DNA from: Sphingopyxis macrogoltabida
GTDB lineage: Bacteria > Pseudomonadota > Alphaproteobacteria > Sphingomonadales > Sphingomonadaceae
DNA length: 64,000 nt
Direction: 5' to 3'
Assembly (NCBI RefSeq): GCF_001314325.1
Contig: NZ_CP009430.1
Coordinates: forward strand, 248,001 to 312,000
The notes under the pieces: generated by a model
Databases searched by the model: none
What the model saw: the letters and a program-made list of their open reading frames with translations, nothing else
What the model was told of the DNA's origin: nothing
Translations under genes and position numbers: made by a program
Shown: piece after piece, positions 34,676-52,272 of the stretch
Layout: every line of letters begins with the position of its first letter
How positions within the stretch are numbered: position 1 is the stretch's first letter

Positions 34676-34696
34676 TTGCGTGACCTTGATACGCAA
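34676..34696. promoter_or_regulatory. TGCGT-N9-ACGCA operator, receptor 4 / reductase divergent promoter
   Basis: TTGCGT and ACGCAA form a perfect 6-base inverted repeat with a 9-base spacer, about 60 bases from both divergent starts (34616 and 34753). The spacer (GACCTTGAT) resembles that of the site at 38787-38809, so both arms and spacing are conserved. Probable binding site of the MerR-like protein encoded at 38899. Confidence 0.7.
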
Positions 34697-34752
34697 AATA
34701 ATCTGTGCCACAAACATGTCAACCACTTTACGAATTTTGAGAGAGATGCCGA

Positions 34753-37305: not shown

Positions 37306-37653
37306 TCAGCCGGCGGTGCCGGCCTTGGCGAGATGGCGCTCGCGCGCCACGAGATAGAGCGGGAAGGCGAAGCAGGTGCCGATGAAGGACAGGCCGAAAT
37401 AGAGCCAGCCCTTGCGCGCACCAAGCCCGATCCGCACCGCATCGGGCACGACCCAGATCATGAAGACCGCCCAGGCCGCCAATATGTCGATGGTGAGAAA
37501 GGCGGCGGCGCTGCCGCTGCGATAGGCATCGAGAAAGAAGGTCGGCAGGAGCAGCAGATTGCCGCCCTCCCTCACCCACGCGATCCCGTGAAACCAGGCC
37601 GCGGCCGCCGAGGCAACCGCGATCAGGATATAGAGCAGGTGGCGGGCGACCAT
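37306..37653 (-). CDS. DUF2834-like small membrane protein
   Basis: 115 residues with about three membrane helices (residues 5-21, 50-70 and 82-103). FLTIDILAAWAVFMIWVVPDAVRIG and FGLSFIGTCFAFPLYLVARER match the DUF2834 pattern. Its ATG overlaps the stop of the XylM-like gene as TGATG, so the two are made together. No known function; a helper or stabiliser of the membrane hydroxylase is a reasonable but untested idea. The 50-base gap to the aldehyde dehydrogenase stop contains no obvious terminator. Confidence 0.75.
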   Translation of the reverse strand: MVARHLLYILIAVASAAAAWFHGIAWVREGGNLLLLPTFFLDAYRSGSAAAFLTIDILAAWAVFMIWVVPDAVRIGLGARKGWLYFGLSFIGTCFAFPLYLVARERHLAKAGTAG

Positions 37654-38762
37654 CAGCTGGCGGCCCAGGCGCCTGCAGGCTTTTCGTCGAACCAGTCGGG
37701 CCAGCCGGCGGCGCGGTTTTGCGCCCTCGCAAGCTCGCGTTCCTCAGGCGTCGCCAGTTCATTGTCCCAGCGCTTCAGCGCCGGCTTGATCACGGCATTG
37801 TGCCAGAGCGGCGGGATCAGAGCCGAGAAGAAACAGACGAACACGCTCGGCATCGGGATCCACTGGCGGTCAGGACGGAGCTCGTGGAAGGCGGCGAAGC
37901 TGTCGGTGTGGTGGTCGGCATGGTTGGTGATCTCGAAGCCCATCACGCGCGACAGGGGCTTGAGATGATTCCAGACATGGCGGCGCGCGATCGCGCCGCC
38001 GGGGACCCGAGTGAGCCCGTAATGCTGGAAATAGTTGAAGCTCTCGACCCAGAAGCGCGCGCCGACCATGCCGGCAAGAACGACAGCCACCGCGGTCCAG
38101 CCGCCGATCAGGAAGACGAGGCTCTGCATCACGAGCTGCGCGAGGAGCGCTTTCCAGATGCGGTGCTGGATCGACCAGCGGCCGTAGCCCTGCTTCTCGA
38201 GGCTGTCGCTTTCCATCCGCCACGCGTCGCGCGTGCTCTGGATGACCGCCTTGCCGGTAAAGCCGTAGAGCGAGACGCCGCGGCGCGCGGTGTCCCCGTC
38301 ATGTTCGGTCGCGACGTCGAGGTGGTGACCGGTCACATGCGCGATCTCGCGGGTGCAGTCGAGATAGCAGACCTGCGAATAGGTGCCGATGAACCGGCGC
38401 AGCTTGCCGCGCTGATGATAGAGCTCGTGCGAGGCGGGCACGAGCGGGACAACGCTCATCCAGGCAAGCGAAAGGATCGCACCGGCATATTGCCAGGGCG
38501 TGATCGCCTCTGAAGAACGCACCCAGAAGGCCGCCATGAAATAGAGCCCGACCGCGAGGATTGTCGCGAGCCAAACGGGCAAGTCCGCCATCAGGCCGCG
38601 CTTCATTTCACGCGGACGCATATCGTTGGGCAGCACCGAATCGATCAACCCGAGCAGCGGAAGCGAGGCGATGCCGATGAAGACCCAGTTCCCGCCTAGC
38701 GCAAACCCCGCATAAGCGGCGATCTGCACGAGCACAGGGGTATAATAACGCGTGTAGTCCAT
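37653..38762 (-). CDS. Membrane di-iron hydroxylase, XylM/AlkB family
   Basis: 369 residues from ATG 38762 with GAGGAG upstream; longer forms would begin inside the operator. Four to six membrane helices. Histidine boxes are HELYHQR (112-118), HVTGHHLDVAT (142-152), NYFQHYG (243-249) and NHADHH (280-285). The C-terminal half with FHELRPD, MPSVFVCFF, LIPPLWH and ATPEERELA is much closer to XylM of xylene monooxygenase than to alkane AlkB. It inserts oxygen into a methyl group, likely aromatic, allylic or cyclic. Electron donor is probably the XylA-like reductase. The operator lies just upstream, and a regulator diverges. Confidence 0.92.
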   Translation of the reverse strand: MDYTRYYTPVLVQIAAYAGFALGGNWVFIGIASLPLLGLIDSVLPNDMRPREMKRGLMADLPVWLATILAVGLYFMAAFWVRSSEAITPWQYAGAILSLAWMSVVPLVPASHELYHQRGKLRRFIGTYSQVCYLDCTREIAHVTGHHLDVATEHDGDTARRGVSLYGFTGKAVIQSTRDAWRMESDSLEKQGYGRWSIQHRIWKALLAQLVMQSLVFLIGGWTAVAVVLAGMVGARFWVESFNYFQHYGLTRVPGGAIARRHVWNHLKPLSRVMGFEITNHADHHTDSFAAFHELRPDRQWIPMPSVFVCFFSALIPPLWHNAVIKPALKRWDNELATPEERELARAQNRAAGWPDWFDEKPAGAWAAS

Positions 38763-38898: not shown

Positions 38899-39627
38899 AT
38901 GCGCGATCTGGAAAAGCGGACAGGGGTCCACCGGGAGACGATCCGGGTTTACTTTCGGCACGGGCTCCTCCCGGAGCCGGAGCGACCGGCGCCCAATGTC
39001 GCCGACTATGGCGAGACGCATGTCCAGGCGGTGCTTGCGGTCCGCAAGCTGCAGCGCGACGACGGTCTCACCCTGCCCCAGATCAAGGAAGCGCTACGCG
39101 GGCAAAACAGCGATGGCCGGGTCGATGCCGCGGCCTTCCGCAACCTCGAGGCGCTGGTCGCCGCGCGCGTCGGCATGGACGGCGAGGTCCTGCTTGAAAC
39201 GCTGACCGCGGCCTGGCCCTATGCCGAGCATGACGCGAAGGTCTTTCAGGGTCTCGGGATCGTCGAGATCCTCGACACGCCCAAAGGCCCTGCCCTCAGC
39301 ATCATGGACAGCCGCATCGTCACGATCTGGCAGTTGATGCGCGCCGAGGGCTATACCGAGGAAAACGGGTTTCCTCCGACCGTCGTCGATTTCTACGCCA
39401 AGCCCGCCGACATGGTCGCCCGCGAGGAATCGCAGCGGTTCATCGATGCGACCGAGGGACGAATGGACGACGCCGAGGCCGCGCGCATCTTCCATGCCGG
39501 TATTCGTCACATGGTCGACTTCTTCGCGCTTCTCCGTCTCAAGAGCCTGATGCGCTATATCCATTTCGACGACGTGACCGGTCATGTCGACGCGGCGCGG
39601 CGCGACGCGAACGGACCGCCCAAATAG
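38899..39627 (+). CDS. MerR-like transcriptional regulator
   Basis: 242 residues from ATG 38899; GTG 38893 is possible, while the longest frame from 38788 would start inside the operator. The N-terminus MRDLEKRTGVHRETIRVYFRHGLLPEP is a MerR-type winged helix with the typical following DYGETHVQAVLAVRKLQ. The remaining 160 residues are helical and match no ligand domain I know; there is no metal-binding Cys motif. It diverges from the XylM-like gene across two palindromes and probably controls the oxidation island through the TGCGT-N9-ACGCA sites. Its 3' end overlaps the convergent gene at 39582 by 46 bases. Confidence 0.8.
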   Translation: MRDLEKRTGVHRETIRVYFRHGLLPEPERPAPNVADYGETHVQAVLAVRKLQRDDGLTLPQIKEALRGQNSDGRVDAAAFRNLEALVAARVGMDGEVLLETLTAAWPYAEHDAKVFQGLGIVEILDTPKGPALSIMDSRIVTIWQLMRAEGYTEENGFPPTVVDFYAKPADMVAREESQRFIDATEGRMDDAEAARIFHAGIRHMVDFFALLRLKSLMRYIHFDDVTGHVDAARRDANGPPK

Positions 39628-40754
39628 GCCGGATAGCCAAGCTGGCTGACCACCGCATAGTCGGCCATCCGCAGATCCTCGTCGGCGCGTCCGTCCGCAA
39701 AGGGTGCAATGGCTTCGGCGGCGCTCTCGCGCGCAGCCACGTCACCTAAGCGGCCTTTCAAGGGCTGCAAGGCCGCTACGACATCGGCAATGAAGGCCGG
39801 AAGCGTCTCCTTGCGGGCGTGCCGATCATAGTCGGTCTTCCCAAGGAAGAGCGTCTGGATCATGTTCCGCGGTTCGGGGCGCTGAATGAGATGCGCGAAG
39901 ATCGCCATTTCGCTGCGGATCGCACCATCGAAGCATTGCGGGAGACCGAACTCGATACAGTCGAGGATCGCGATCGGCGCCGGATAATAGCCCTCGGTCT
40001 CTGCCATTACACGGGCGCGCACCGGATCGATCTGCGCCGACACCGAGGCCGGCCCCAGATCGAGCCAGTCCTCCTTGTCCCACGGCTGTGCGGCTTCCGG
40101 CCGCGAGAGAAGCCAGGCCTCGGCGGCCGCGACTTCGTCGCCCTCCGGGACGAGCGCATGGACAAGGCCTGCATCGAGCGCCGCCTGTCCAGCGAGGCGA
40201 GCGCCCTCGAGCAGGATCGGCAGGGCGGCCTGGACGCCGACGAGGCGCGGGAGGCGCTGCGTCCCCCCCGCGCCGGGAAGCAGACCGACGAGCGATTCCG
40301 GAAGCCCGAGCGCGGCACGCGGGCTGTCGACGAGAACACGGTAGTGCGTCGCGAGCGAAAGCTCGCAGCCTCCCCCGAGCGCGAGGCCGGCAATCGCCGA
40401 GGCCACCGGCTTGCCGGCGGTCTCAAGCGCGCGGAGGGCAGCGCTCAGCGGGAAGAAATGGTCGAAGGCGATGGTGAAGCGTTCGCGCGCCGGCGCCGCG
40501 ACGATCATGTCATATGCAACGCCGAGTTCGGTGAGATCGGCCCCTGCGCAAAAGGCATTGTCCTTGCCTGACCGGACAAGTACGCCGAGGACATCGCTCG
40601 TACCGAGCCAGGCCGCAAAGGCCTTGAGCTCATGGATCGCGGCGTTCGAGAAGACGTTCATCGTCCGTCCCGGCGCGTCGAAGACAAGATGGACGAGGCC
40701 ATTGTCCTGAAACTCCAGCCGGAACTGTTCCATGGCGGGCGGCGGATTGGTCAT
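39582..40754 (-). CDS. Enoyl-CoA hydratase, FadB/FadJ N-terminal-half type
   Basis: 390 residues from ATG 40754. Residues 1-200 are a crotonase domain with FCAGADL, both catalytic glutamates (GGGCELSLA and LGLPESLVG) and GAGGTQRLPRL, as in the hydratase part of FadB/FadJ. Residues 250-310, including EGYYPAPIAILDCIEFGL, match the linker helices that precede the dehydrogenase domain in those fusions, but the dehydrogenase itself is absent. It would hydrate a 2-enoyl-CoA; in a ring-cleavage scheme it could act like BadK. Last gene of the ten-gene operon; its end runs antisense to the MerR-like gene. Confidence 0.85.
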   Translation of the reverse strand: MTNPPPAMEQFRLEFQDNGLVHLVFDAPGRTMNVFSNAAIHELKAFAAWLGTSDVLGVLVRSGKDNAFCAGADLTELGVAYDMIVAAPARERFTIAFDHFFPLSAALRALETAGKPVASAIAGLALGGGCELSLATHYRVLVDSPRAALGLPESLVGLLPGAGGTQRLPRLVGVQAALPILLEGARLAGQAALDAGLVHALVPEGDEVAAAEAWLLSRPEAAQPWDKEDWLDLGPASVSAQIDPVRARVMAETEGYYPAPIAILDCIEFGLPQCFDGAIRSEMAIFAHLIQRPEPRNMIQTLFLGKTDYDRHARKETLPAFIADVVAALQPLKGRLGDVAARESAAEAIAPFADGRADEDLRMADYAVVSQLGYPAYLGGPFASRRAAST

Positions 40755-40768
40755 CGTCTTTCCTTCGG

Positions 40769-42160
40769 TCAGGGGGCGGGCGCAAGCCGGCCCTTGCGGA
40801 CCTTGCCGGCGTCGTCGCGCACGGGCTGGGTCCGGGTTTCGAGGCTGCGCGGATGCTTTTCGCGCGCAAGCCAGGGATTGAGAAACTGGCCAAGCTCGGC
40901 GAGGCTGAGCGTGCCCGTATCGGCTTCGACAACGGCATGAACGGCCTGACCGAGATCGGGGTGCGGAATGCCGACGACGGCGCAGGAGCGGACCGCCGGG
41001 TGTCGGAGGATCGCCGCCTCGACTTCGGCCGGCCAGACGTTGACGCCGCCCGAGATGATGAGGTCGGTGCGCCGGTCGGCAAGGTAGAGATAGCCATCGG
41101 CATCGAGCCGGCCGATATCGCCGACCGATTCCCACCCATCGGACGTGGCCCGCCGTTCGGCGCCGATATAGCGATAGGTCGAGCCCGGCCCCCCGGGGGG
41201 CATGGCGAACACTTCGCCTTCCTCCCCCGCCTCGCACACCTGCCCGTCGTCGCGCAGGATCCGGAGGCGCCCGCCGCCGATCGGACGCCCGACAGAACCC
41301 GGGCGCTCAAGCCATTCGCGCCCGCCGATCCAGCAGCGCACCAGACCCTCCGTGGCGCCATAGACTTCCCAGATATGATCGCGCCCGCACCATTCGATCC
41401 ACGCCTGCTTGAGCCAGGGCGCCATCGGGGCCGCCGTGTGGACCACCATCGCCCAGCGCGAGAGGTCGTGACAGGCGCGCGCCGTCGGCGTGAGCGCCAT
41501 GATCCGGTGCATCATCGTCGGAACCATCAGCGCCCATGTAGCGCCCTCGTCGTCGATCAGCCCCAGCGCCGTCACGGCATCGAACTTGTCCATCGTGACG
41601 ATCGTCGAGCCCTTCCAGAGGGCGAAGACCGCCGCGCTGAAGGGCGCGTTATGATAGAGCGGCCCCGGTACCAGCACGCAGCTGTTCGCCGGAATTCCGA
41701 TGAAGTCGGTCCCCTCGGGAAAGCCTGCGCTTCTCCCGTCGACGATGACCTTCGGCACGCCCGTGCTGCCGCCGCTCGTACAAGCCTTCCACGATGCCGC
41801 GACATGCCTCGAAGCTTCGCCCTGCGGATCGCCCGGCGCAGGCCCCTCCTCCCCGCCCACGACGAGGCGGGGCTGCATGACGGCGATGATCGCTGTGCGC
41901 TCATGCGCCGTGATCTTCCAGGATATCGGCGCCGGGGTGGCGCCCGCGCGGTAAGTGCCGAAGGCGAGCGCGATGAAGTCGGGCCCGTTGGGCAGCGCGA
42001 AGGCAACGAGATCGTCGGCCGTCACACCGCGCGAGGTCAGCCACGCGCACCATTGTGCCGAGCGGCGATCGAGATCGCCCCAGGTCCAACGCGCCGCGCC
42101 GTGCACGATCGCGAGGCGATCGGGCGGAAAGGCGGCGGGGACGTCGGCGAGCGGGCGCAT
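40769..42160 (-). CDS. AMP-dependent acyl-CoA ligase
   Basis: 463 residues from ATG 42160, two bases after the preceding stop; shorter than most ligases because the N-terminal subdomain is compact. Motifs TSGGSTGVPKVI, YGATEG, GDIGRLDADGYLYLADR and SGGVNVWPAEVE are intact. The C-terminal catalytic Lys lies in a GKVRKGR tail. It activates a carboxylic acid as CoA ester. Placed with ring-cleavage genes it is a candidate for an alicyclic acid ligase analogous to AliA, which is inference only. Fourteen bases separate it from the hydratase. Confidence 0.87.
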   Translation of the reverse strand: MRPLADVPAAFPPDRLAIVHGAARWTWGDLDRRSAQWCAWLTSRGVTADDLVAFALPNGPDFIALAFGTYRAGATPAPISWKITAHERTAIIAVMQPRLVVGGEEGPAPGDPQGEASRHVAASWKACTSGGSTGVPKVIVDGRSAGFPEGTDFIGIPANSCVLVPGPLYHNAPFSAAVFALWKGSTIVTMDKFDAVTALGLIDDEGATWALMVPTMMHRIMALTPTARACHDLSRWAMVVHTAAPMAPWLKQAWIEWCGRDHIWEVYGATEGLVRCWIGGREWLERPGSVGRPIGGGRLRILRDDGQVCEAGEEGEVFAMPPGGPGSTYRYIGAERRATSDGWESVGDIGRLDADGYLYLADRRTDLIISGGVNVWPAEVEAAILRHPAVRSCAVVGIPHPDLGQAVHAVVEADTGTLSLAELGQFLNPWLAREKHPRSLETRTQPVRDDAGKVRKGRLAPAP

Positions 42161-42162
42161 CG

Positions 42163-43086
42163 TCAGAAGCCGACCTTGTCGCCGCCCTTGAGCGCCAGGA
42201 TTTCGCGCGCTTCGTCGGGTGTCGCGGCCTCGAGGCCGAGCCCTTCGATGATCTGGCGCACCCGCGTCACCTGCGCCGCGTTGCTCGGGGCGAGGACGCC
42301 CTTGTCGAGCCAGAGATTGTCCTCGAGGCCGACGCGGACATGTCCGCCCATCGCGGCCGCCTGCGCAGCGACCTTCATTTGCGACGCGCCGGCACCGAGC
42401 ACCGACCAACGATAATTGTCACCGAACAGCCGGTCGGCGGTGCGCTTCATATGCAGCACTTCCTCGGGATGCGGGCCGATACCGCCAAGGAGCCCGAAGC
42501 AGGTCTGGATGAACAGCGGCGCCTGCACGAGGCCCTCGGTCCAAAAATAATGGAGATTGTGGAGGTGGCTCGTGTCGTAGCATTCGAACTCGTAGCGCGC
42601 GCCGGTCGCGTTCAACGTCTCGAGCGCGTAGCGGATGTCCTTGAAGCTGTTGCGAAAGACGAGGTCGTGACTGCCCTCGAGCATCGCGGGCTCCCACTCA
42701 TGCTTGAACTCCTTGTAGCGCTTCAGCATCGGGAACAGCCCGAAGTTCATCGACCCCATGTTCAGGCTCGCGACCTCGGGCTTCCAGACCGCTGCGGGCT
42801 GCACGCGCTCTTCGACCGGCATATAGGGCGAGCCGCCGGTCGTGAGGTTCACCACGACGTTCGACGACTGCTTGATGACCTTGAGGAAGGGCTCGAACGC
42901 CTCGGGGCTCTGGTCAGGTCGCCCGTCTTCGGGATTGCGCGCATGGAGATGGACGATCGCGGCACCCGCCTCGGCGGCGCCGAGCGCGCTTTCGGCAATT
43001 TCTTCGGCGGTCACCGGCAGATGCGGTGACATCGAAGGGGTGTGGATCGATCCGGTGATCGCGCAGCTGATGATGACCTTGCTCAT
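42163..43086 (-). CDS. Beta-keto acid cleavage enzyme (DUF849/BKACE)
   Basis: 307 residues. The zinc and substrate motifs of the family are clear: VIISCAITG at the N-terminus, IVHLHARNPEDGRPD with two His, YEFECYDTSHLHNL with Glu and His, and GHVRVGLEDN. BKACE enzymes swap the acyl part of a beta-keto acid with acetyl-CoA, giving acetoacetate and a new acyl-CoA, without a thiolase. The adjacent CoA-transferase could recycle acetoacetate or activate the keto acid. Specificity residues cannot be judged by eye. Unusual in an alicyclic pathway and possibly a bypass around a blocked beta-carbon. Confidence 0.9.
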   Translation of the reverse strand: MSKVIISCAITGSIHTPSMSPHLPVTAEEIAESALGAAEAGAAIVHLHARNPEDGRPDQSPEAFEPFLKVIKQSSNVVVNLTTGGSPYMPVEERVQPAAVWKPEVASLNMGSMNFGLFPMLKRYKEFKHEWEPAMLEGSHDLVFRNSFKDIRYALETLNATGARYEFECYDTSHLHNLHYFWTEGLVQAPLFIQTCFGLLGGIGPHPEEVLHMKRTADRLFGDNYRWSVLGAGASQMKVAAQAAAMGGHVRVGLEDNLWLDKGVLAPSNAAQVTRVRQIIEGLGLEAATPDEAREILALKGGDKVGF

Positions 43087-43098
43087 ATCTCGTCCTTT

Positions 43099-44343
43099 TC
43101 AAAGTTTCGCCGCATAGGCGCGCCAGCCGGCGGTCAGCGCCTCGCGGTGCTGCGGGGCGGCGATGGCGACGAGCGCTTCGGCGCGCTCGTCGTAGGAAAG
43201 CCCCCGGATATCGGCAGCGCCGAACTCGGTGGCGATGATGTCGCTGTCCATGCGGCCGAGCGTCACCGGTCCCGCCGAGGCGCCCGGCAGCCCGATCCGG
43301 CTGATCGCGCCGCCATCGGCGGCGGCCGGCAGCGCGATGACGCGGAGCCCCCCGCCCTGCCGCGCGCCCGCCGTGAAATCGGGCGCGCCGCCTGGCCCCG
43401 ATATCAGCCCGCGCGGCCCGAATTCCGAAAAAGCCTGGCCGAGGAGATCGACCTCGAGCGCCGAATTGATCGCGACAAAATTGGCTATGCCCGCGATGAT
43501 TGCGCGGTCGTGCGTGACCGCGGCAGGAAGAAAGGCAAATTCTGGCCCCTCGATCGCGCGGTAGAGCCGGCGCGAGCCGATCGCGACCCCCGCGGTGACC
43601 GCCTGTCCCATTGCGAGCGCGCCCGCCTCGAGAAGATCGACAACCTCGTCGCCGACAAGTCCGCTGTGGACACGCAGGTTCCGCCGCCCGGTGAGCGCAC
43701 GCAAGATGGCGCCAGGCACCTTGCCGACCCCGGTCTGAAGCGTGGCGCCATCGGTGATCCAAGGCGCGACGTGGCCCGCGATCGCGTCAGCGACCGGGTC
43801 GGCGCTGCCATCGGGCTCGCCGTCGAACCCCGCCGACTGCTCAACATAGGCGGTGAGCGCGCTGAAAGGGATGCCGCTGTCGCCGCGCGTTCGCGGCATC
43901 GCGGAATTGATGTGCGCGATCCGGACCGGGATATGCGGCCAGAATTCGGCCGCGAAATCGACCGCGGGCCCGAAGCTGCAGACGCCCTCGTCGTCGGGCG
44001 GCGTTACCATGCAGATCAGCGCGTCGATCTGGATATTGCGGAGCCGGCGGCGGATGTCGCTGTAGCAAAGCGGCAGCTGTTCGACGCGCCCGCCCAGATC
44101 CTTCTTGAGCGGCGGGGTCACGAAGAAGGTCTCGACGCGCGCCGCAGCGCTCGCAAGATAGCTATGGCGATTGAGTCCCGGCACGAAAATGCCGGTGAAG
44201 GTCATCGCGCCGAGCCGCTCACCGGCTGCCATCACGGCCTCGGCGAGAAGCACAGATTCGCCCGAGGCTCCCGTCACCAGCACGCGCCCGCCGACCGGCA
44301 ACCAGTCGGCTATATCGGCGGGCAGGAAGGAAACGGGAGCCAT
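43099..44343 (-). CDS. Acetyl-CoA hydrolase/transferase family CoA-transferase
   Basis: 414 residues. Family I CoA-transferase of the 4-hydroxybutyrate CoA-transferase / acetyl-CoA hydrolase group: VTGASGESVLLAEAV, GVGKVPGAI, catalytic Glu in INSALEVDLLGQ and the closing ATEFGAADIRGLS. It moves CoA between acids through a glutamyl-CoA intermediate. It is 12 bases upstream of the BKACE gene and 18 downstream of the BadI-like gene. It may load CoA onto a diacid from ring opening or onto acetoacetate from BKACE; context does not decide. Confidence 0.88.
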   Translation of the reverse strand: MAPVSFLPADIADWLPVGGRVLVTGASGESVLLAEAVMAAGERLGAMTFTGIFVPGLNRHSYLASAAARVETFFVTPPLKKDLGGRVEQLPLCYSDIRRRLRNIQIDALICMVTPPDDEGVCSFGPAVDFAAEFWPHIPVRIAHINSAMPRTRGDSGIPFSALTAYVEQSAGFDGEPDGSADPVADAIAGHVAPWITDGATLQTGVGKVPGAILRALTGRRNLRVHSGLVGDEVVDLLEAGALAMGQAVTAGVAIGSRRLYRAIEGPEFAFLPAAVTHDRAIIAGIANFVAINSALEVDLLGQAFSEFGPRGLISGPGGAPDFTAGARQGGGLRVIALPAAADGGAISRIGLPGASAGPVTLGRMDSDIIATEFGAADIRGLSYDERAEALVAIAAPQHREALTAGWRAYAAKL

Positions 44344-44361
44344 GTCGGTCGCTCGTCCGCC

Positions 44362-45156
44362 CTATTTCACATATTTGTGGAAATCGGGCGTCCGCTTCTC
44401 CTGGAAGGCGCGCATGCCTTCCTTCGATTCCTCGGTGTCGTAGAAGAGCTTGACCGAGTTCAGCGCCAGCATGGAGATGCCGCGGATATTGTCGCTGTCC
44501 GCATTGAAGCTGCGCTTGGCGAGCGCCAGCGCCGTCGGCGAGCGCTGCGCGATGATGTCGGTCCATTCGTTGACGGCGGCATCGAGTTCGTCGGCGGGCA
44601 CGACCTTGTTGACGAGGCCCATCTCGAGCGCTTCCTGCCCGCTATACTGGAGGTTCAGGTACCAGATCTCGCGGGCCTTCTTGTCGCCGACATGGCGCGC
44701 GAGGAAGGCGGTGCCCCAGCCCGCGTCGACCGAACCGACCTTGGGGCCGACCTGGCCGAGCTTCGCGGTGTCGGCCATGATCGAGAGGTCGCAGAGCGTC
44801 GCGAACACATTGCCGCCGCCGATCGCGAAGCCGTTGATGCGCGCGATCACGGGCTTCGGAATGTCGCGGATGATCGACTGGAGCTCGTCGATCGGCAGGC
44901 CGACGATACCGCGGCCGTCATATTGGCCGTCCTTCGCGCTCTGGTCGCCGCCGGTGCAGAAGGCCTTGTCGCCGGCGCCCGTCAGGACGACCGACGAGAC
45001 GCCCTTGTTATCGGACGCAAGCTTGAACGCCGCGATCAGTTCCTCGATCGTCTGTGCACGGAACGCATTATAGAGCTTCGGGCGGTTGATGATGATCCAC
45101 GCTGCGCGGTCGCGAATCTCGTAGAGAATGTCTTCAAATTCAGGAGTGCTGCTCAT
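44362..45156 (-). CDS. badI: 2-ketocyclohexanecarboxyl-CoA hydrolase-like ring-cleavage enzyme
   Basis: 264 residues, crotonase fold of the MenB/BadI branch. The stretch FCTGGDQSAKDGQYDGRG, then GLPIDELQSIIRDIPKPVIAR, QVGPKVGSVDAGWGTAFLAR, KKAREIWYLNLQYSG and SPTALALAKRSFNAD matches Rhodopseudomonas BadI as I remember it. BadI adds water to a 2-ketocyclohexanecarboxyl-CoA and opens the ring to pimelyl-CoA. A BadH-like dehydrogenase and a MarR regulator lie upstream in the same order as the bad genes. The natural ring here may carry alkyl groups. Misassignment to a MenB-like or other Dieckmann-type hydrolase is possible. Confidence 0.82.
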   Translation of the reverse strand: MSSTPEFEDILYEIRDRAAWIIINRPKLYNAFRAQTIEELIAAFKLASDNKGVSSVVLTGAGDKAFCTGGDQSAKDGQYDGRGIVGLPIDELQSIIRDIPKPVIARINGFAIGGGNVFATLCDLSIMADTAKLGQVGPKVGSVDAGWGTAFLARHVGDKKAREIWYLNLQYSGQEALEMGLVNKVVPADELDAAVNEWTDIIAQRSPTALALAKRSFNADSDNIRGISMLALNSVKLFYDTEESKEGMRAFQEKRTPDFHKYVK

Positions 45157-45171
45157 GGTGAAATCCTTTCA

Positions 45172-45582
45172 CTAATTGTTTCGGTAAATCGCGTGCGAGC
45201 GCGCCATCACGCGCTCGCCGACCCGGGCGATCGCCTGCGTGAAGATCATGGTGCGCGTCTTTTTGATCAGTTCGACATGGGCGACGAGCCAGTCGCCCGC
45301 TAGCGGCGGCGCCAAGAAGTCGACATGCAGCGATATGGTCGGAGTGTGGTTGCTCCCATCTTCCTCGAGCGAAATGACGACCATGCCATGTCCGTCGAGG
45401 AAGGTCGCCATCGCGCCCCCATGCATGGCGCCGGTGGCATTGCAATGTTCGGGCTTGACCAACAGGCAATAGCGGGCGGACTCGCGATCTATCCAGATTT
45501 CGCCAATGGACCAAGGGCCCGTATTGGTGACGAAGGTCCGCTCCCAATTGCCGTCGACCGCCGGGCGTTCGACGTTGTTCAT
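45172..45582 (-). CDS. Hot-dog fold thioesterase, PaaI-like
   Basis: 136 residues of the PaaI/acyl-CoA thioesterase family. The motif HGGAMATFLDGHGM, with Asp as the likely catalytic residue, is preceded by NATGAMHGG and followed by SLHVDFLAPPLAGD. It hydrolyses acyl-CoA esters and probably rescues CoA from stalled ring or branched intermediates, as PaaI does in phenylacetate degradation. It lies between the BadH-like and BadI-like genes with gaps of 4 and 15 bases. Substrate unknown. Confidence 0.87.
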   Translation of the reverse strand: MNNVERPAVDGNWERTFVTNTGPWSIGEIWIDRESARYCLLVKPEHCNATGAMHGGAMATFLDGHGMVVISLEEDGSNHTPTISLHVDFLAPPLAGDWLVAHVELIKKTRTMIFTQAIARVGERVMARSHAIYRNN

Positions 45583-45586
45583 CGCG

Positions 45587-46351
45587 CTAAATCATGTTCA
45601 TGCCACCGGCGACCGAGAAGGTCTGGCCGGTGATGAAGCCCGCATCGTCGGATGCGAGGAAAGCGACGATGCCCGCATAATCCTCGGGCTCACCCATGCG
45701 CTTCAGCGGAATGCCGCGAACCATCGCGTCCTTCCACTTCACCGCCTGCTCGCCTTCGCCGAGCACGCTCGCCATCATCGGCGTGTTGGTCGGGCCCGGG
45801 CAGACGACGTTGAGCAGCACGCCCTTCGAGGCAAGCTCGCGCGCGACCGACTTGGTAAAGCTGATCAGGCCCCCCTTGCAGGCCGAATAGACTGCTTCGT
45901 TGCTCGTCCCGACGCGCGCGGCGTCCGACGCGATATTGATGATCCGCCCGCCGCCACGCGCGACCATGCGCGGTGCAACCGCGGCATGGGTGAACAGCGG
46001 ACCGTAGAGGTTGATCGCGATGATCTTGTCCCAGAGCGCCTTGTCGGTCGCGAGGAACGGCGACGGCTTGTCCCAGCCGGCATTGTTGACCAGCGCCCAA
46101 ATGGGGCCGAGATCGGCCTCGACCGCCTCGACCGCGGCGTTCACCGCGTCCTGGTCGCTGACGTCGAGCGCATAGGTCTTGATGACCGCCCCCTCGCCCG
46201 CGATCCCGGCGGTTTCCTCGCCGGCTTCCGCCTTGAGATCGAAGATCGCGACCTTGCAACCCTCGGCTGCGAGGCGGAGCGTAAGCGCCCTGCCGATACC
46301 CTGACCGCCGCCTGTGACGATCGCTACCTTGCCCTGCAAACCCAACACCAT
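45587..46351 (-). CDS. badH: 2-hydroxycyclohexanecarboxyl-CoA dehydrogenase-like SDR
   Basis: 254 residues from ATG 46351 (AGGAGAG upstream). Classical SDR with TGGGQGIG, NNAGWD and an intact catalytic set in NIASDAARVGTSNEAVYSACKGG (Ser, Tyr, Lys). The segments NNAGWD-KPSPF, IASDAARVG, VCPGPTNT and SDDAGFITGQTFSV closely follow BadH. BadH oxidises 2-hydroxycyclohexanecarboxyl-CoA to the 2-keto ester that BadI opens. The linked BadI-like and MarR genes make this the most secure pathway assignment in the window. The ring may be substituted. Confidence 0.82.
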   Translation of the reverse strand: MVLGLQGKVAIVTGGGQGIGRALTLRLAAEGCKVAIFDLKAEAGEETAGIAGEGAVIKTYALDVSDQDAVNAAVEAVEADLGPIWALVNNAGWDKPSPFLATDKALWDKIIAINLYGPLFTHAAVAPRMVARGGGRIINIASDAARVGTSNEAVYSACKGGLISFTKSVARELASKGVLLNVVCPGPTNTPMMASVLGEGEQAVKWKDAMVRGIPLKRMGEPEDYAGIVAFLASDDAGFITGQTFSVAGGMNMI

Positions 46352-46365
46352 ATCTCTCCTGATTG

Positions 46366-46851
46366 CTAAGTCATGAATTCTGGATCGGAGCCCAGCGCCT
46401 CGGCCTCGCTTCCGGCGAGTTCGAGGAGCGTCTCCTTGATGGTCAGAAGTGTCGCGGCGGCCTGGTTCAGCGCATCCTCCGACACATTTTCGAGGATCTG
46501 GAGCTCGATCTGCTCCACATTCTCGCGGATGGTGATCACCATCTTGCTGCCGGCGCGGGTCAGATAGACGCGGCGCGCGCGGCCATCGCTCGCATCGGCG
46601 CGGCGTTCGACGAACCCTGCCGCTTCCATGCGGTCGAGCAAGCCGCCGATCGCGACCTTGGTGAGGTCGAGGTCCGCCGCGAGCGCGGTCTGGGTCATGC
46701 CGTCGCGGCGCGACAGGAAGGCGAGCACCCACCATTGCGAGCGGGTGATGCCGAGCGGCTTAAGCGCCCGGTCCACCACGACGCGGCGCAGGCGCGACAC
46801 GTCGTGAATGAGAAAGCCGAAGCGAAGTCCGGTGTTGAGGTCTTTGGTCAC
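46366..46851 (-). CDS. MarR-family regulator, BadR-like position
   Basis: 161 residues from GTG 46851, which has AAGGA six bases upstream; an in-frame ATG at 46947 would add 32 atypical residues and lacks a ribosome site. MarR core: RLRRVVVDRALKPLGITRSQWWVLAFL, recognition region MTQTALAADLDLTKVAIGGLLDRME and wing RRADASDGRARRVYLT. In Rhodopseudomonas, BadR, also MarR type, represses the badHI/ali genes and responds to the keto-ring CoA. Here the gene lies inside the operon just before the BadH-like gene. Similar control is likely but no operator is visible in the 14-base gap. Confidence 0.83.
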   Translation of the reverse strand: MTKDLNTGLRFGFLIHDVSRLRRVVVDRALKPLGITRSQWWVLAFLSRRDGMTQTALAADLDLTKVAIGGLLDRMEAAGFVERRADASDGRARRVYLTRAGSKMVITIRENVEQIELQILENVSEDALNQAAATLLTIKETLLELAGSEAEALGSDPEFMT

Positions 46852-46954
46852 AGCAGATCCTTGGTGTTGGTTTGCACCGCCACCGCTAGCCCCGATTGAT
46901 AGATTTTCAAAAGGAACTGTTTCGGAATCTTTTGGACCGCGTGCCATAATCCGG

Positions 46955-48121
46955 TCAGCCCCGGTTCTTCTGGAGCTTGCCCTTGAACATCTCGCGCGCG
47001 ATGATCGTCTTCATGATCTCGATCGAGCCGCCCGCGATCTTGACGATGCGCGCATCGGCATAGGCCCGGCAGATCGGATATTCCCACATATAGCCCCAGC
47101 CGCCGAACAGCTGGAGACACTTGTCCGCAGTCTCGCAGTGCAGTTCGGACGTCACCATCTTCGCCATCGCGGCGTCGACGGGATCGAGCTCGCCCTTCAT
47201 GAAAAGGTCGATACATTTGTCGGTGAAGACGCGCGCCATCACCGAGCGCGCCTTGAGATCTGCAAGCACGAACTGGGTGTTCTGGAAATCGCCGATCGAC
47301 TGGCCGAACGCCTGGCGCTCGGCAGTGTAGTCGACCGTCCATTCGAGCATCACCTCGGTGACCGTCGCCGAGCGGATCGCCTGCGCAAGGCGTTCCTGCG
47401 GCAGCTTGGTCATCATGAGCTTGAAGCCTTGCCCCTCGCCGCCAAGCATTGCGCTCTCGGGAATGCGCATATTGTCGAAAAAGAGCTCGGACGTGTCCTG
47501 CGCCTTCATGCCGAGCTTTTCGAGATTCTGGCCGCGGTTGAATCCGGGGGTCGCCGCATCGACGAGGAACAAGGTTACGCCGTGCGCGCCGGCCTGGCTG
47601 TCGGTCTTGGTCGCGAGCACGATGACGTCGCAAAGCTGCCCGTTCGAGATGAAGACCTTCTGGCCGTTGATCACAAACTCGTCGCCGTCGCGCACCGCCT
47701 GCGTCCGCACGGCCTTGAGGTCGCTGCCCGCGTGCGGCTCGGTCATGCCGAGCGAGCCGATCGCCTCGCCCCGGACCATCTTGGGCAACCAGTGGCGCTT
47801 CTGCTCCTCGGACCCGAAGGAGAGGATGTAGGTTGCGACAAGGTCGGTGTGGATCAGGAAGCCGGGACCACTCGCGCCGACGCGCCACAATTCTTCATAG
47901 ACGACGGCGTCGAAAAGATAGTCGAGGCCGAGCCCGCCATATTCCTCGGGCACGGTGCAGCAGAGCATGCCCGCCTCGCCCGCCTTCAGCCAGAGCTCGC
48001 GCGGGACGATGCCTTCCTTTTCCCACCGGTCATGATGCGGGACGATTTCCTTCTCCACAAATTTGCGGACGGACTCGCGCCACATTTCATGTTCTTCGCT
48101 AAAAATATTGCGTTCGATCAT
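46955..48121 (-). CDS. Acyl-CoA dehydrogenase
   Basis: 388 residues. FAD-dependent acyl-CoA dehydrogenase with SLGMTEPHAGSDLKAV, VFISNGQL, FGGWGYMWEYPI and KIAGGSIEIMKTIIAREM. The usual C-terminal catalytic Glu is absent and the likely base is in LPQERLAQ, as in long-chain and isovaleryl-type enzymes. In a ring-cleavage setting it may desaturate the ring carboxyl-CoA as AliB does. Gap of 28 bases to the SDR upstream and 103 bases to the MarR start used here. The substrate is inferred only from neighbours. Confidence 0.87.
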   Translation of the reverse strand: MIERNIFSEEHEMWRESVRKFVEKEIVPHHDRWEKEGIVPRELWLKAGEAGMLCCTVPEEYGGLGLDYLFDAVVYEELWRVGASGPGFLIHTDLVATYILSFGSEEQKRHWLPKMVRGEAIGSLGMTEPHAGSDLKAVRTQAVRDGDEFVINGQKVFISNGQLCDVIVLATKTDSQAGAHGVTLFLVDAATPGFNRGQNLEKLGMKAQDTSELFFDNMRIPESAMLGGEGQGFKLMMTKLPQERLAQAIRSATVTEVMLEWTVDYTAERQAFGQSIGDFQNTQFVLADLKARSVMARVFTDKCIDLFMKGELDPVDAAMAKMVTSELHCETADKCLQLFGGWGYMWEYPICRAYADARIVKIAGGSIEIMKTIIAREMFKGKLQKNRG

Positions 48122-48149
48122 CGCCTAGGCCCCTTTAATCTCTTGGTCT

Positions 48150-49037
48150 TCAGCCTGCCCGATTGGCCTTGTCGCGCTGCGTGGATTGCTCGATCGCCTC
48201 GCGCGCGGTCTGCCACTGCGCGTCGGTCATGCCGGTCAGGTCGGCGAAGGTGCCGGGGCCGGCGAGATGCTGGCCGCCGTCGATCGCGATCGTCTGTCCG
48301 GTGAGATAGTCGCACCCGTCCGAGAACAGGAAGGTGATGAGGTTCTGGAGTTCGGGCATCGCCCCGTAGCGCCGGAGCGGCACCGTCTCTTCACTCGTCG
48401 CCGACGATTTCGCATCGGGGATCGGATTGAGTTTCTCCCAGGCGCTTTCGGTCGGAAAGGGTCCGGGGGCGGTCGCGTTGAGGCGGATGCCATAAGGCCC
48501 CCATTCGACCGCGAGCGACATGGTCATGGCGTGGAGCGCGGTCTTCGCCATCGCCGAGGGAACGACGAAGGCCGAACCCGTCCACACCCAGGTGACGAGG
48601 TTGCTGACCACCGACCCCTTGATGCCTTCGTCGATCCAGCGTTTGCCGAGAGCGAGCGTGACGTGGAAGCTGCCGTCCATCACCGTCGAGGTGATGGCGC
48701 GAAAGCCGCGCGGGCTCAGCCCCTTGGTCGGCGCGATGAAGTTGGCGGCGGCGTTGTTGAGGAGGCTGGTGACCGGTCCGACCTTCCACATCGCCTCGAC
48801 CATCGCGTCGACCTGATCGGCGTCGCGGATGTCACAAGTATGCCAATGTACCTTTCCGGGGTTCTCCAGCGCGATCTCGGCAGCGGCGGCTTCGAGGACG
48901 TTAGCGCGGCGGCCGCAGATATGGACCGTCGCCCCTTTGGCAGCCAGCGCCTTCGAGATTTCGAGGCCTAGCCCTGATCCGCCGCCGGTCACGAGAATGG
49001 ATTTGCCCGCGAGCACGTCGGACCGGAATATGTCCAT
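48150..49037 (-). CDS. SDR oxidoreductase, 2,4-dienoyl-CoA reductase-like
   Basis: 295 residues, first gene of the ten-gene operon. TGGGSGLG and NNAA are present. The YxxxK position reads SAMAK, keeping Lys but not Tyr, and SLAVEWGPYGIRLNATAPGP follows, as in dienoyl-CoA reductases. NADPH-dependent reduction of a ring or chain dienoyl-CoA is the likely reaction. A second, unrelated-looking C-terminal extension of about 25 residues (ADLTGMTDAQW onward) is present. The GTAAG/TTTAC site lies 57 bases upstream. Confidence 0.8.
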   Translation of the reverse strand: MDIFRSDVLAGKSILVTGGGSGLGLEISKALAAKGATVHICGRRANVLEAAAAEIALENPGKVHWHTCDIRDADQVDAMVEAMWKVGPVTSLLNNAAANFIAPTKGLSPRGFRAITSTVMDGSFHVTLALGKRWIDEGIKGSVVSNLVTWVWTGSAFVVPSAMAKTALHAMTMSLAVEWGPYGIRLNATAPGPFPTESAWEKLNPIPDAKSSATSEETVPLRRYGAMPELQNLITFLFSDGCDYLTGQTIAIDGGQHLAGPGTFADLTGMTDAQWQTAREAIEQSTQRDKANRAG

Positions 49038-49093: not shown

Positions 49094-49107
49094 GTAAGCC
49101 AGTTTAC
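49094..49107. promoter_or_regulatory. GTAAG-N4-TTTAC site between two ten-gene operons
   Basis: GTAAG and TTTAC flank CCAG in the 137-base gap between the divergent operons starting at 49037 and 49175. The same sequence with spacer TATG, and with similar TT and A flanks, is found at 61915-61928. It is a probable operator for a common regulator, perhaps TetR type, not identified in this window. Confidence 0.6.
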
Positions 49108-49174: not shown

Positions 49175-50605
49175 GTGACCCATCAACCGGGGTCGATTGT
49201 GGCTGTCGGCGGCTATTTGCCGCTGCTGCGCCTGGACCGGGCGCAGGCTGCCAGATCGCTGAAACATTTCGGACTCGGCGGACGCCAGGCGGGCTATCGC
49301 GCCGTCGCGGGTTGGGACGAGGATGCCTTCACGCTCGCCGCCGAAGCGAGTCGGGCGCTCACCGAGTCGGCGCCCGCGCGCATCTGCTTCGCATCGACCT
49401 CGGCGCCCTTCATCGACCGCGCGCATGCGAGCCTGCTCGTCGACGCGCTGGCGCTGCCGCTCACGACGCGCACGCTCGATGTCGCCGGGAGCCGGCGCTG
49501 CGCGGTCGCGGCACTGCTCGACACGTTGCTCGGCGCCGACGACAGCGTGATTGCGGCGGGCGAGCGGCGTCCGGCGAAGCCCGGCAGCCCGGCGCATCTG
49601 GCCTATGGCGACGGCGGCAGCGCGGTGCGCACGGGTAGCGATGGGCCTGCGAAGCTCGTCGGCTGGGCCTCGCAGGCGCACGACCTGCTCGACAGCTACG
49701 CCTCGCGCGGTCACGAAACCGCTTATCCGAGCGAAGAGCGCTTCGTGCGCGACATTGCGAGCAGCGCGATCATCGCTCCGGCGATCAACGATGCCTGCGC
49801 GAAGGCCGGGATCGCCGCCGGCGATGTGAAATGGGCGGCGGTCCACGAGCCGCTCTCAGGCATGTGGAAAGATATCGCGCGCCGCACCGGCATCACCGCG
49901 CCAAACCTTGCCGCCACCCTCGCCGAGCAGGCGGGCGATCTTGGCGCCGCGCATGCGCTGTTCGCGCTCGGCCTCGCGTTCGACGCCGCGCGTCCGGGCG
50001 ACCATGTCCTGCTCGCGGGCTTTGGCAGCGGCTGCGACGCGCTGATTTTCCGCGTCGATGCCAAAGTGCCCGGCGCGAGCTCGGTCCGGGCGGCGCTCGG
50101 CGCGGGCGAGGCGTTGACCGACTATGTCCGCTTCCTCTCGCTCAGCGGCGGCGTCGATCTCGATTTCGGGGTCCGCTCCGAATTCGAACAAAAGGCGCAG
50201 GCGACTGTGGTCGAGCGCTATGGCCGCGACACGCTCGGCTTCATCGGGGGCCGCGACGAGCAGGGCAATGTCCAGTTCCCCAAGACCCCTATCCCCGTGC
50301 GTCCCGGCGCCACGGGACGCGAGGCGCTCGAGGATGTGCGGCTGGCCGATCTGCCGGCGAAGGTCGCGTCGGTCACCGCCGACCGCCTGAACTACACGCC
50401 CGACCCACCCTTCTGGTTCGGGCTCGTGCAGTTCGACAATGGCGCGCGCATCCTGATGGAGCTCACCGACGCTAGCGGCGCCGGCTTTGCGGTCGGCGAC
50501 GCGCTCGGCATGCGCCTGCGGATCAAGTCAATCGACAAAAAGCGCGGCATGCGGACCTATTTCTGGAAAGGTGCGCCCGCCCAGCGGCCGCAGATGGAGG
50601 CCTGA
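49175..50605 (+). CDS. HMG-CoA synthase-like protein fused to a DUF35 OB-fold domain
   Basis: 476 residues from GTG 49175 (GGGAGG upstream; overlaps the stop of a 7-codon ORF from 49155). Residues 1-330 resemble the thiolase fold of HMG-CoA synthase; residues 350-470 a DUF35/OB domain (TPDPPFWFGLVQF, GMRTYFWK). At the active site VAGSRRCAVAAL aligns so that the nucleophile Cys appears replaced by Arg. The OB domain lacks the zinc cysteines normally around QFPKT. It probably is not a classical synthase. The thiolase gene follows by three bases; in archaea thiolase, DUF35 and HMG-CoA synthase form one complex. Confidence 0.78.
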   Translation: MTHQPGSIVAVGGYLPLLRLDRAQAARSLKHFGLGGRQAGYRAVAGWDEDAFTLAAEASRALTESAPARICFASTSAPFIDRAHASLLVDALALPLTTRTLDVAGSRRCAVAALLDTLLGADDSVIAAGERRPAKPGSPAHLAYGDGGSAVRTGSDGPAKLVGWASQAHDLLDSYASRGHETAYPSEERFVRDIASSAIIAPAINDACAKAGIAAGDVKWAAVHEPLSGMWKDIARRTGITAPNLAATLAEQAGDLGAAHALFALGLAFDAARPGDHVLLAGFGSGCDALIFRVDAKVPGASSVRAALGAGEALTDYVRFLSLSGGVDLDFGVRSEFEQKAQATVVERYGRDTLGFIGGRDEQGNVQFPKTPIPVRPGATGREALEDVRLADLPAKVASVTADRLNYTPDPPFWFGLVQFDNGARILMELTDASGAGFAVGDALGMRLRIKSIDKKRGMRTYFWKGAPAQRPQMEA

Positions 50606-51819: not shown

Positions 51820-52272
51820 ATGGCGGGACTTTATTTCGAGCAGTTCAGCGTGGGCCAGGCTTTCGATCACGAGATCCGCCGCACGGTGACCGACATGGAC
51901 AATATATTGTTCAGCTCGCTCACCTATAATCCGGCGGCGATCCATATCGATCATGCCTATGCGGCGACGACCGAGTTCGGCAAGCCGCTGATGAACTCGA
52001 TCTTCACCCTCGGGCTCGTCATCGGGCTGTCGGTGCAAGACACGACGCTCGGCACGACGATCGCCAATCTCGGGATGAGCGAGACGACCTTCCCCAAGCC
52101 GGTCTTCGCCGGCGACACGATCCGCGCGCGCACCACGGTGCTCGAGCTCAGGGACAGCAAGTCGCGGCCGACGCAGGGCATCGTCACCTTCGAGCATATC
52201 GGGCTCAACCAGAAGGACGAGATCGTCTGCCGCACGCTGCGCGGCGCACTGATGATGCGGAGCCCCGCGTGA
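51820..52272 (+). CDS. MaoC-like dehydratase, mesaconyl-CoA hydratase type
   Basis: 150 residues, hot-dog hydratase. The region SSLTYNPAAIHIDHAYA corresponds to the hydratase 2 motif, but Thr replaces the usual Asp, as in MaoC proteins that accompany CitE-like lyases. FVxTLGLVIGLSV, TTLGTTIANLGM and FPKPVFAGDT are further markers. It probably hydrates a methyl-branched unsaturated dicarboxylyl-CoA such as mesaconyl-CoA. The downstream lyase overlaps it as GTGA, supporting a two-step reaction. Confidence 0.83.
   Translation: MAGLYFEQFSVGQAFDHEIRRTVTDMDNILFSSLTYNPAAIHIDHAYAATTEFGKPLMNSIFTLGLVIGLSVQDTTLGTTIANLGMSETTFPKPVFAGDTIRARTTVLELRDSKSRPTQGIVTFEHIGLNQKDEIVCRTLRGALMMRSPA

Follow-up and report, generated by a model that had tools for sequence, protein, structure and literature searches.

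Which ring does a ring-opening gene cluster on a plasmid of the sludge bacterium Sphingopyxis macrogoltabida open, and how is the product then broken down? We analysed a 64,000-nucleotide stretch of this plasmid (hereafter the window; contig NZ_CP009430.1, positions 248,001 to 312,000), whose bases 1-49,500 are identical to plasmid unnamed1 of S. macrogoltabida 203N (NZ_CP013345.1) and in which a ten-gene minus-strand operon (39582-49037) encodes proteins resembling the ring-cleavage enzymes BadH and BadI. Cyclic terpenoid degradation is a large carbon flow for which few pathways have been characterised in aerobic bacteria. A first-pass annotation had taken the operon for a mirror of the cyclohexanecarboxylate (bad-ali) genes of Rhodopseudomonas; judged by gene content and protein comparison, the closest gene set found is instead a betaproteobacterial monoterpene island, and the cluster probably encodes an alphaproteobacterial and aerobic counterpart of terpenoid ring cleavage as known from Castellaniella (mrc) and from a methanogenic enrichment (lrc). 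Positions are those of the window unless prefixed C2, which counts along the whole plasmid.

Gene content of the two divergent operons

The minus-strand operon comprises the following genes, listed in transcription order.

48150-49037, minus strand: SDR1, a short-chain dehydrogenase/reductase (SDR) like 2,4-dienoyl-CoA reductases, predicted role like MrcC (NF005811, 225.7 bits, below the cut-off of 318)
46955-48121, minus strand: acyl-CoA dehydrogenase ACAD1
46366-46851, minus strand: MarR regulator (PF12802), presumed binder of the operator at 49094
45587-46348, minus strand: BadH-like SDR dehydrogenase (best family TIGR03206)
45172-45582, minus strand: PaaI-type hotdog thioesterase (PF03061), variable and not part of the core
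44362-45156, minus strand: BadI-like ring-opening hydrolase (best family TIGR03210)
43099-44343, minus strand: CoA-transferase-like protein with an acetyl-CoA hydrolase/transferase C-terminal domain (PF13336)
42163-43086, minus strand: beta-keto acid cleavage enzyme (BKACE; NF053538, PF05853; closest solved chain 8rio)
40769-42160, minus strand: acyl-CoA ligase (AMP-binding)
39582-40754, minus strand: enoyl-CoA hydratase-related protein with a long C-terminus, predicted role like MrcF/BadK

A second operon starts 137 bp from this block and runs the other way.

49175-50605, plus strand: KS_OB, like beta-ketoacyl-acyl-carrier-protein synthase III (KAS III) and 3-hydroxy-3-methylglutaryl (HMG)-CoA synthase, with Arg for the catalytic Cys
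50609-51808, plus strand: THL, an SCP2-type thiolase (NF004810, 646.3 bits, above the cut-off of 403)
51820-52272, plus strand: MaoC1 hydratase (PF01575; PF19315, mesaconyl-CoA hydratase)
52269-53132, plus strand: CitE-type CoA-ester lyase (PF03328)
53148-54326, plus strand: acyl-CoA dehydrogenase ACAD2
54332-55252, plus strand: SDR2, like 3-hydroxyacyl-CoA dehydrogenases
55256-56110, plus strand: MaoC2-type hydratase (PF01575, PF22622), not core
56110-57054, plus strand: nitronate monooxygenase (NMO)-like flavoprotein (PF03060), not core

The order of genes in the block is kept in sphingomonads, a Bradyrhizobium and others, and because of this conservation the block is not a chance assembly. 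The MarR, BadH-like, thioesterase, BadI-like, ligase, acyl-CoA dehydrogenase and hydratase genes named by the first-pass annotation are all present on the minus strand; it had overlooked the BKACE, CoA-transferase-like and SDR1 genes and the whole divergent operon.

BadI and BadH belong to a separate clade

By family scores and trees, the BadI and BadH of the window group with BadI-type proteins, and not with MenB or other sampled SDRs, yet they form a separate clade. The product of 44362-45156 matched badI (TIGR03210) best among NCBIfam models (409.6 bits; next the MenB model, 326.9), and that of 45587-46363 matched BadH (TIGR03206) best (325.3 bits; next the generic glucose 1-dehydrogenase subfamily NF005559, 218.0). 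A maximum-likelihood tree was built from 74 distinct BadI-type sequences and two MenB references (76 rows). In it, the 38 rows at least 74% identical to the window BadI, which we call core, lie on one side of a branch with support 100/100 and a long stem, and the MenB references form a separate pair (100/100) apart from them; the deeper forks are weak, with the core rows and three above-cut-off rows joined at 80/0. A BadH tree of 80 rows, built by a quick method and with three weak 'adjacent' rows put with the others beforehand, places the window BadH within a fork (support 98) made up of all 30 BadI-adjacent rows and three others. These placements agree with the BadI and BadH kinship claimed by the first-pass annotation. 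TIGR03210 matched at 1e-70 in 10 of the 298 genomes of a family sample, none above the cut-off; in a class sample 37 of 289 genomes had a match, nine of them above it. In genome G560 an AlkB/XylM-type hydroxylase (66%) lies ~8 kb from an above-cut-off BadI (L094:604-10482), apart from that genome's core-type cluster.

A conserved set of genes accompanies the core BadI

We compared loci from 33 named records and 45 genome regions, some from the same genomes, which after collapsing identical BadI sequences gave 38 core and 36 other loci. Full core loci (n = 23) were those with at least 7 kb on each side of BadI; the window, a short locus in this set, is not among them. Homologues were counted at 45% identity or more (30% for KS_OB). 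BadH, MarR and ACAD1 were present in all 23, the CoA-transferase in 22, BKACE, thiolase, KS_OB, MaoC1, CitE and hydratase in 21 each, and SDR1, ACAD2 and SDR2 in 20 each; the ligase (11), thioesterase (8), NMO (8), MaoC2 (6) and XylM-type hydroxylase (3) were less constant. The 29 non-core BadI loci with such flanks held BadH in 15, KS_OB in 4, thiolase in 4, MaoC1 in 1 and a XylM-type hydroxylase in 1; BKACE, CoA-transferase and CitE were found in none of the 29. Of two later core-type loci outside these counts, L194 carries BKACE (88%) and L196 has none in its 28.8 kb. BKACE alone was rejected as a marker of the pathway: ten other regions with a BKACE at 66-73% identity showed none of the other tested genes beyond weak SDR or alcohol dehydrogenase matches.

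Four non-core BadI loci (L089, L091, L092 and L098, three of them over the BadI cut-off) have a thiolase (64-65%) and a KS_OB (34-37%) near BadI, perhaps a further variant. In S. italica (L005) BadH is 98% and BadI 93% identical to the window, and the thioesterase between them (L005:9585-10004) is only ~43% identical to that at 45172-45582, which suggests local gene replacement.

Kinship with betaproteobacterial monoterpene islands

Castellaniella defragrans carries a 70-kb island for limonene degradation in which mutants of mrcF (perillyl-CoA hydratase) and mrcC (2,4-dienoyl-CoA reductase) do not grow on limonene, and MrcD and MrcE are BadH- and BadI-like (PMC4109377). The gene table of that source lists an (R)-specific hydratase, a citrate lyase and an acyl-CoA dehydrogenase consecutively, as well as acetoacetyl-CoA synthetase, thiolases, acetyl-CoA hydrolase/transferase, electron transfer flavoprotein (ETF) and MarR genes, and it gives proteins of Azoarcus sp. 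KH32C as the closest relatives of MrcD and MrcE. These proteins appear to lie on plasmid pAZKH: the accession order fits, with accessions equated with locus tags.

Our sequence comparison was with KH32C; Castellaniella was compared through the published table, in which a BKACE could be concealed among the hypothetical proteins. Reciprocal best hits between the window and KH32C were found for ACAD2 (80%), ACAD1 (72%, to a dehydrogenase beside BadH/BadI), SDR2 (71%), THL (68%), MaoC1 (68%) and BadI (65%), and at lower identity for CitE (57%), BadH (55%), MarR (49%), KS_OB (39%), CoA-transferase (39%) and hydratase (38%). Outside this region the Sphingopyxis plasmid also has ETF genes with KH32C matches of 60% and 69%, and the KH32C BadI (411.9 bits, also under the cut-off) and BadH (325.7) score near their window counterparts. 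The KH32C BadI is nearer to non-core rows, and because of this the kinship rests on the gene set.

No BKACE match was found in the 40.8-kb KH32C island stretch, where a ligase passes the acetoacetate-CoA ligase model TIGR01217 (902.9 bits, cut-off 520.9); the Sphingopyxis genome has three matches to this model, none over the cut-off, and among the collected loci the KH32C-type ligase was found only in KH32C itself and as one 28% match (L033). Betaproteobacterial islands did not appear in a phylum-wide CitE search of 398 genomes and were reached through the plasmid collection, and no named betaproteobacterial island was among the best 120 results of a hydratase protein search.

An operator shared by core and entry genes

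An imperfect inverted repeat, GTNARNNNRTTTAC, occurs in all 23 divergent promoters compared (window plus 22 loci; the pattern was written after viewing their alignment), and in 22 of the 23 a TGTCAA box lies 29 nt beyond it. The exact pattern GTNARCNNGTTTAC has a single match in the 5.75-Mb genome, at window 49094. Four of the 43 genomic places that match with one mismatch lie inside the 64-kb window, for which shuffles average 0.31 matches and never reach the five seen. The sites assigned in the window are as follows.

49094-49107, plus strand: putative 14-bp MarR operator GTAAGCCAGTTTAC, in the divergent promoter
34718-34731, plus strand: second putative operator, one mismatch, 22 bp upstream of the reductase gene
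61915-61928, plus strand: putative operator before the ECH3-LIG2-ECH2 run (matrix score 19.5)
6153-6166, plus strand: putative operator lying 17 bp before the CaiB/BaiF gene at 4994-6136 (matrix score 17.1)

The scores come from a weight matrix built on foreign promoters only (18 distinct sites, none from the window or S. italica) and scanned over the 422-kb plasmid and 40 kb of chromosome. Six sites head the plasmid at 16.6-19.5, the next scoring 13.8, and a site of at least 16.6 turned up just once in five Markov-shuffled plasmids. Besides the four above, the six comprise a site between ETF and a third acyl-CoA dehydrogenase (C2:342098) and one before a TonB receptor (C2:312444). Across 31 core-type loci, 38 of the 39 sites scoring at least 15 lie within 700 bp upstream of a pathway gene. 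Most sites in divergent promoters are the matrix's own training sites, the rest being independent: 13 of the 39 lie outside the divergent promoter, and 12 of these precede a pathway gene (reductase, MarR, ECH3 or MerR/XylM). A like site stands 22 bp before ECH3 in L021.

A one-mismatch site upstream of the hydroxylase-reductase gene was found in six of six loci, which include two closely related pairs. Because the reductase promoter shares the operator, we tie the XylM/AlkB-type hydroxylase system to the ring-opening core, a link that the first-pass annotation had also drawn. As long as no CoA ester of the pathway is present, the MarR protein would keep the core, entry and uptake genes repressed.

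BadR-type control was considered and rejected. The BadR operator is CAAnnnnTTG (PMC9795900), and this motif was found nowhere between 48001 and 50000 of the window, divergent promoter included; it occurs in 3 of the 22 other core promoters, and CAATnnATTG in 6 of the 13 canonical loci scanned.

A proposed route through a branched glutaryl-CoA

From gene content, gene order, phylogeny, co-inheritance and the shared operator we infer both the reactions and the substrate. Adjoining the minus-strand block are genes for an AlkB/XylM-family hydroxylase, a XylA-like reductase, an aldehyde dehydrogenase and a MerR regulator, with a CYP153-like P450 further left.

37653-38762, minus strand: AlkB/XylM-family membrane hydroxylase (PF00487; AlkB structures 8f6t, 8sbb), predicted entry step, accessory
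34753-35799, plus strand: XylA-like 2Fe-2S reductase (Fer2, FAD- and NAD-binding domains; BenC-type match under the cut-off)
35816-37255, plus strand: aldehyde dehydrogenase

A ring methyl group would be oxidised by the AlkB/XylM-type hydroxylase with its reductase, or by the upstream CYP153-like P450; dehydrogenases would carry it to the acid and the ligase to the CoA ester. ACAD1 (if the ring is saturated), hydratase, BadH and BadI would then give a 5-substituted pimelyl-CoA, which a single round of beta-oxidation (an ACAD, a hydratase, SDR2 and THL with KS_OB) would shorten to 3-R-glutaryl-CoA. Because R sits on the beta carbon, this intermediate blocks ordinary beta-oxidation. ACAD2 and MaoC1 could convert it to the tertiary alcohol 3-hydroxy-3-R-glutaryl-CoA, which CitE, in the fashion of HMG-CoA lyase, would split into acetyl-CoA and the free beta-keto acid R-CO-CH2-COO-. 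BKACE would turn this acid and acetyl-CoA into R-CO-CoA and acetoacetate, to be recovered by the CoA-transferase and thiolase; BKACE and the KH32C acetoacetate-CoA ligase would be alternatives for one step. The position of R at ring C4 points to p-menthane-type (limonene- or perillate-like) or related para-substituted alicyclic acids as substrates, and the lrc paper reasons in the same way for limonene, from 5-R-pimelyl-CoA to 3-R-glutaryl-CoA (PMC12583861). The first-pass proposal, methyl-to-carboxyl oxidation of a cyclic terpenoid or alkylcyclohexane followed by BadH/BadI ring opening, thus keeps its direction, favoured by the kinship with monoterpene islands and the shared operator; it erred on the closest relative and was incomplete.

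The individual enzymes bear on this scheme to differing degrees. The BKACE scores 531 bits against NF053538, above the curated cut-off of 430. Paracoccus BKACE15, which takes beta-ketohexanoate and beta-ketopentanoate (PMC11961710), probably belongs to the same model, to judge from these substrates, and in Clostridium a triacetate lyase from this superfamily yields acetoacetate, with a CoA-transferase and a thiolase working alongside it (PMC10470551). Among CitE-type enzymes, the distantly related Rv2498c has (R)-HMG-CoA lyase activity (PMC6689899). The closest solved structure to MaoC1 is a beta-methylmalyl-CoA dehydratase, and those closest to THL include archaeal acetoacetyl-CoA thiolases. 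In KS_OB, the position of the 6esq_I Cys that we take to be the catalytic Cys of HMG-CoA synthase is occupied by Arg107, which is invariant across all 14 sequences compared. Among the fold matches of KS_OB are PhlA, from the PhlABC acyltransferase, and an archaeal HMG-CoA synthase; the fold model is poor past residue 320, and an OB/DUF35 tail is a guess. Given the Arg for Cys and these fold matches, the modelled KS_OB may be read as a partner of the thiolase, with the tertiary cut given to CitE.

More tentatively, and with somewhat greater doubt than belief, we extend this to a plasmid regulon under one regulator that would mineralise terpenoid rings by a CitE retro-aldol cut to a free branched beta-keto acid, followed by BKACE. 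The CaiB/BaiF gene (PF02515) lies at 4994-6136 on the minus strand; its product we take to be like alpha-methylacyl-CoA racemase. Because this racemase-like gene is operator-linked, an alpha stereocentre in R is suggested, and the substrates may be larger than limonene (bisabolane-type sesquiterpenoids). No CitE-then-BKACE route for terpenoid rings was found in the literature searches made.

Weighing the alternatives

The plainest rival is a cyclohexanecarboxylate (bad-ali) operon yielding pimelyl-CoA. BadH and BadI are the best-matching families, a MarR gene is present as with BadR, and in Aromatoleum CIB the bad-ali genes form two divergent operons, one of which encloses badR in the opposite direction (PMC9795900). 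Both proteins nevertheless fall under their curated cut-offs, and the window BadI sits in its own clade. The dehydrogenase that had been called an AliB counterpart reaches 223.0 bits against a TIGR03207 cut-off of 575.35, AliA was not among the best 25 of 85 families for the supposed AliA-like ligase, and in Rhodopseudomonas badR diverges from badHI-aliBA-badK (PMC9795900), so that the operon is no mirror image. The divergent promoter lacks the CAAnnnnTTG motif, and BKACE, CitE and MaoC1 are co-inherited though needless for unsubstituted pimelyl-CoA. We consider this explanation improbable. Ring opening of petroleum-type alkylcyclohexanes or naphthenic acids, in place of plant terpenoids, is a second alternative: the AlkB-type and CYP153-like hydroxylases are alkane-type, the proposed chemistry suits any 4-alkylcyclohexanecarboxylate, and a Marinobacter plasmid region (L198) combines an alkane monooxygenase, BadH and BadI types and an aliB-annotated gene. 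The closest gene sets found are nonetheless monoterpene-type islands, and SDR1 is like the 2,4-dienoyl-CoA reductase without which Castellaniella does not grow on limonene, which leaves petroleum-type rings a rather unlikely substrate.

Steroid, chiefly estrogen, degradation is suggested by the edc cluster of Novosphingobium tardaugens, which contains BadI-like, thiolase, lipid-transfer and HMG-CoA-synthase genes (PMC7793797), and BadH and BadI are drawn in an estrogen pathway (PMC12507874). Two genes of the annotated types of EdcC and EdcB lie on the same plasmid, 12-22 kb past the window: for EdcC an indolepyruvate-ferredoxin-oxidoreductase-type gene (C2:323844-327347, with a 44% match to an annotated gene), and for EdcB a biphenyl-2,3-diol-dioxygenase-like gene (C2:333508-334395, 334.9 of 366.45 bits). 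These genes led us to raise slightly our estimate for a steroid role and to lower slightly that for the terpenoid pathway, the latter also because of the KH32C BadI's place near non-core rows. Neither the window nor 40 core-type loci (677 kb) contain a relative of these two or of a second dioxygenase, and the nearest operator-like scores in their region are only 10.3 and 8.9. No KshA_C match was found in the genome, rated 100% complete, KshA being specific to the 9,10-seco route and needless for estrogens. The ring C/D enzymes IpdAB, presumably of the PF01144 (CoA_trans) family, also seem absent from the genome, where both PF01144 matches lie on the main chromosome, C1, and the one read looks like a 3-oxoacid CoA-transferase by eye. 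A steroid role is thus the most doubtful of the three, and estrogen degradation is unlikely for the core, though other genes of the plasmid might serve it.

Several observations weigh against the terpenoid pathway itself. BadI and BadH stay below their curated cut-offs (467.6 for TIGR03210, 431.2 for TIGR03206), and BadH passes the generic SDR model NF005559 (218.0 over 215). The KH32C BadI reaches 69-71% identity with some non-core rows but at most 67% with any core row, and the KH32C island is called monoterpene-type from its genes and not from growth (PMC4109377). The lrc proposal assigns the C-C cleavage to an HMG-CoA-synthase-superfamily protein (PMC12583861), and our CitE and MaoC1 resemble malyl-, beta-methylmalyl- and mesaconyl-CoA enzymes more than Rv2498c. 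BKACE is widespread outside the cluster (60 of the 289 class genomes at 1e-100), and a Rhodobacteraceae QY30 plasmid with the core set (L196) has neither BKACE nor an acetoacetate-CoA ligase within 28.8 kb. MaoC1-CitE pairs stand without BadI or BKACE in the 20-kb stretches taken from two genomes (G040 and G484; L193 and L195). The XylM-type hydroxylase is present in only 4 of the 38 core loci and is accessory. As to the operator, the genome-wide one-mismatch search is not enriched (48 matches at 43 places vs. 93 for the reversed control), five loci (L012, L113, L114, L115 and L196) have no site scoring 15, and one of the 13 canonical BadI loci (L109) also matches the pattern. Taking both sides together, we still regard the aerobic terpenoid ring-cleavage pathway as the probable role of the cluster.

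Two side observations belong to these loci: the pairs in L193 and L195 suggest a wider role for MaoC1-CitE, and L196 carries a CaiB/racemase-like gene (53%).

Other genes in and beyond the window

A biotin-dependent carboxylase set lies between 10251 and 16608, made up of a carboxyltransferase, a biotin protein and a biotin carboxylase and accompanied by SDRs and an ACAD. Its carboxyltransferase (10251-11861) scored higher as a methylcrotonyl-CoA type than as a geranyl-CoA type (598.8 vs. 427.6 bits) and was kept out of the model. A second possible entry hydroxylase is encoded at 25026-28366, where the genes grouped with the CYP153-like P450 specify a rubredoxin, a tyrosine phosphatase and an alcohol dehydrogenase; a phosphatase gene is listed for Castellaniella and KH32C too. 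The adjacent stretch (28386-31915) encodes two DUF7064-type proteins that flank both a small protein and an APH-type phosphotransferase. Five TonB-dependent receptor genes lie within the 64 kb (window 1810, 7259, 19810, 32004 and 62081, the last named from sequence), one of which shares the operator-bearing intergenic region 34617-34752. Beyond the window, C2:315025-334395 (L122, L141) is an apparent aromatic meta-cleavage region, its genes mostly named by eye: an aldolase, a hydratase, two Rieske-type oxygenase genes, two extradiol dioxygenases and the indolepyruvate-oxidoreductase-type gene.

Comparison with known systems

The cluster offers candidate genes for terpenoid ring cleavage in sphingomonads and their relatives, and an operator by which the regulon may be recognised. 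Our proposal would give a BKACE and a CitE-type lyase a physiological substrate class, and is a testable alternative to an HMG-CoA-synthase-like protein making the tertiary C-C cut.

With the bad-ali systems of Rhodopseudomonas and Aromatoleum CIB (PMC9795900) the cluster shares BadH, BadI, a MarR regulator and the ligase, dehydrogenase and hydratase roles, and with CIB the divergent operons as well; it differs in its sub-threshold BadI and BadH, its other operator and the added branched-chain module. The edc estrogen cluster (PMC7793797), compared by description, likewise has divergent operons with a BadI-like gene, a thiolase and an HMG-CoA-synthase-like gene, whereas the EdcB/EdcC-type genes of Sphingopyxis lie outside the cluster and in none of 40 core-type loci, and neither KshA_C nor an IpdAB-like pair was found in the genome.

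The resemblance to the mrc island is broader: BadH and BadI (MrcD and MrcE), the hydratase (MrcF), in Castellaniella the 2,4-dienoyl-CoA reductase (MrcC), the MaoC-CitE-ACAD order, thiolase, acetyl-CoA hydrolase/transferase, ETF, tyrosine phosphatase and MarR are common to both. Sphingopyxis differs in having BKACE instead of the acetoacetate-CoA ligase found there, in its AlkB/XylM-type and CYP153-like hydroxylases, where Castellaniella has the limonene dehydrogenase ctmAB, and in its divergent-operon layout. The lrc operon of Syntrophobacteraceae LiM6, again compared by description (PMC12583861), shares the ring hydrolase, thiolases, HMG-CoA-synthase-superfamily protein, CoA-transferase and the branched glutaryl-CoA logic; there the tertiary C-C cleavage is given to LrcC, whose Sphingopyxis counterpart lacks the catalytic Cys and stands beside CitE and BKACE. 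The ring-opening logic is known from mrc and lrc, and what we propose as new is the use of a different enzyme, BKACE, in the removal of the side chain.

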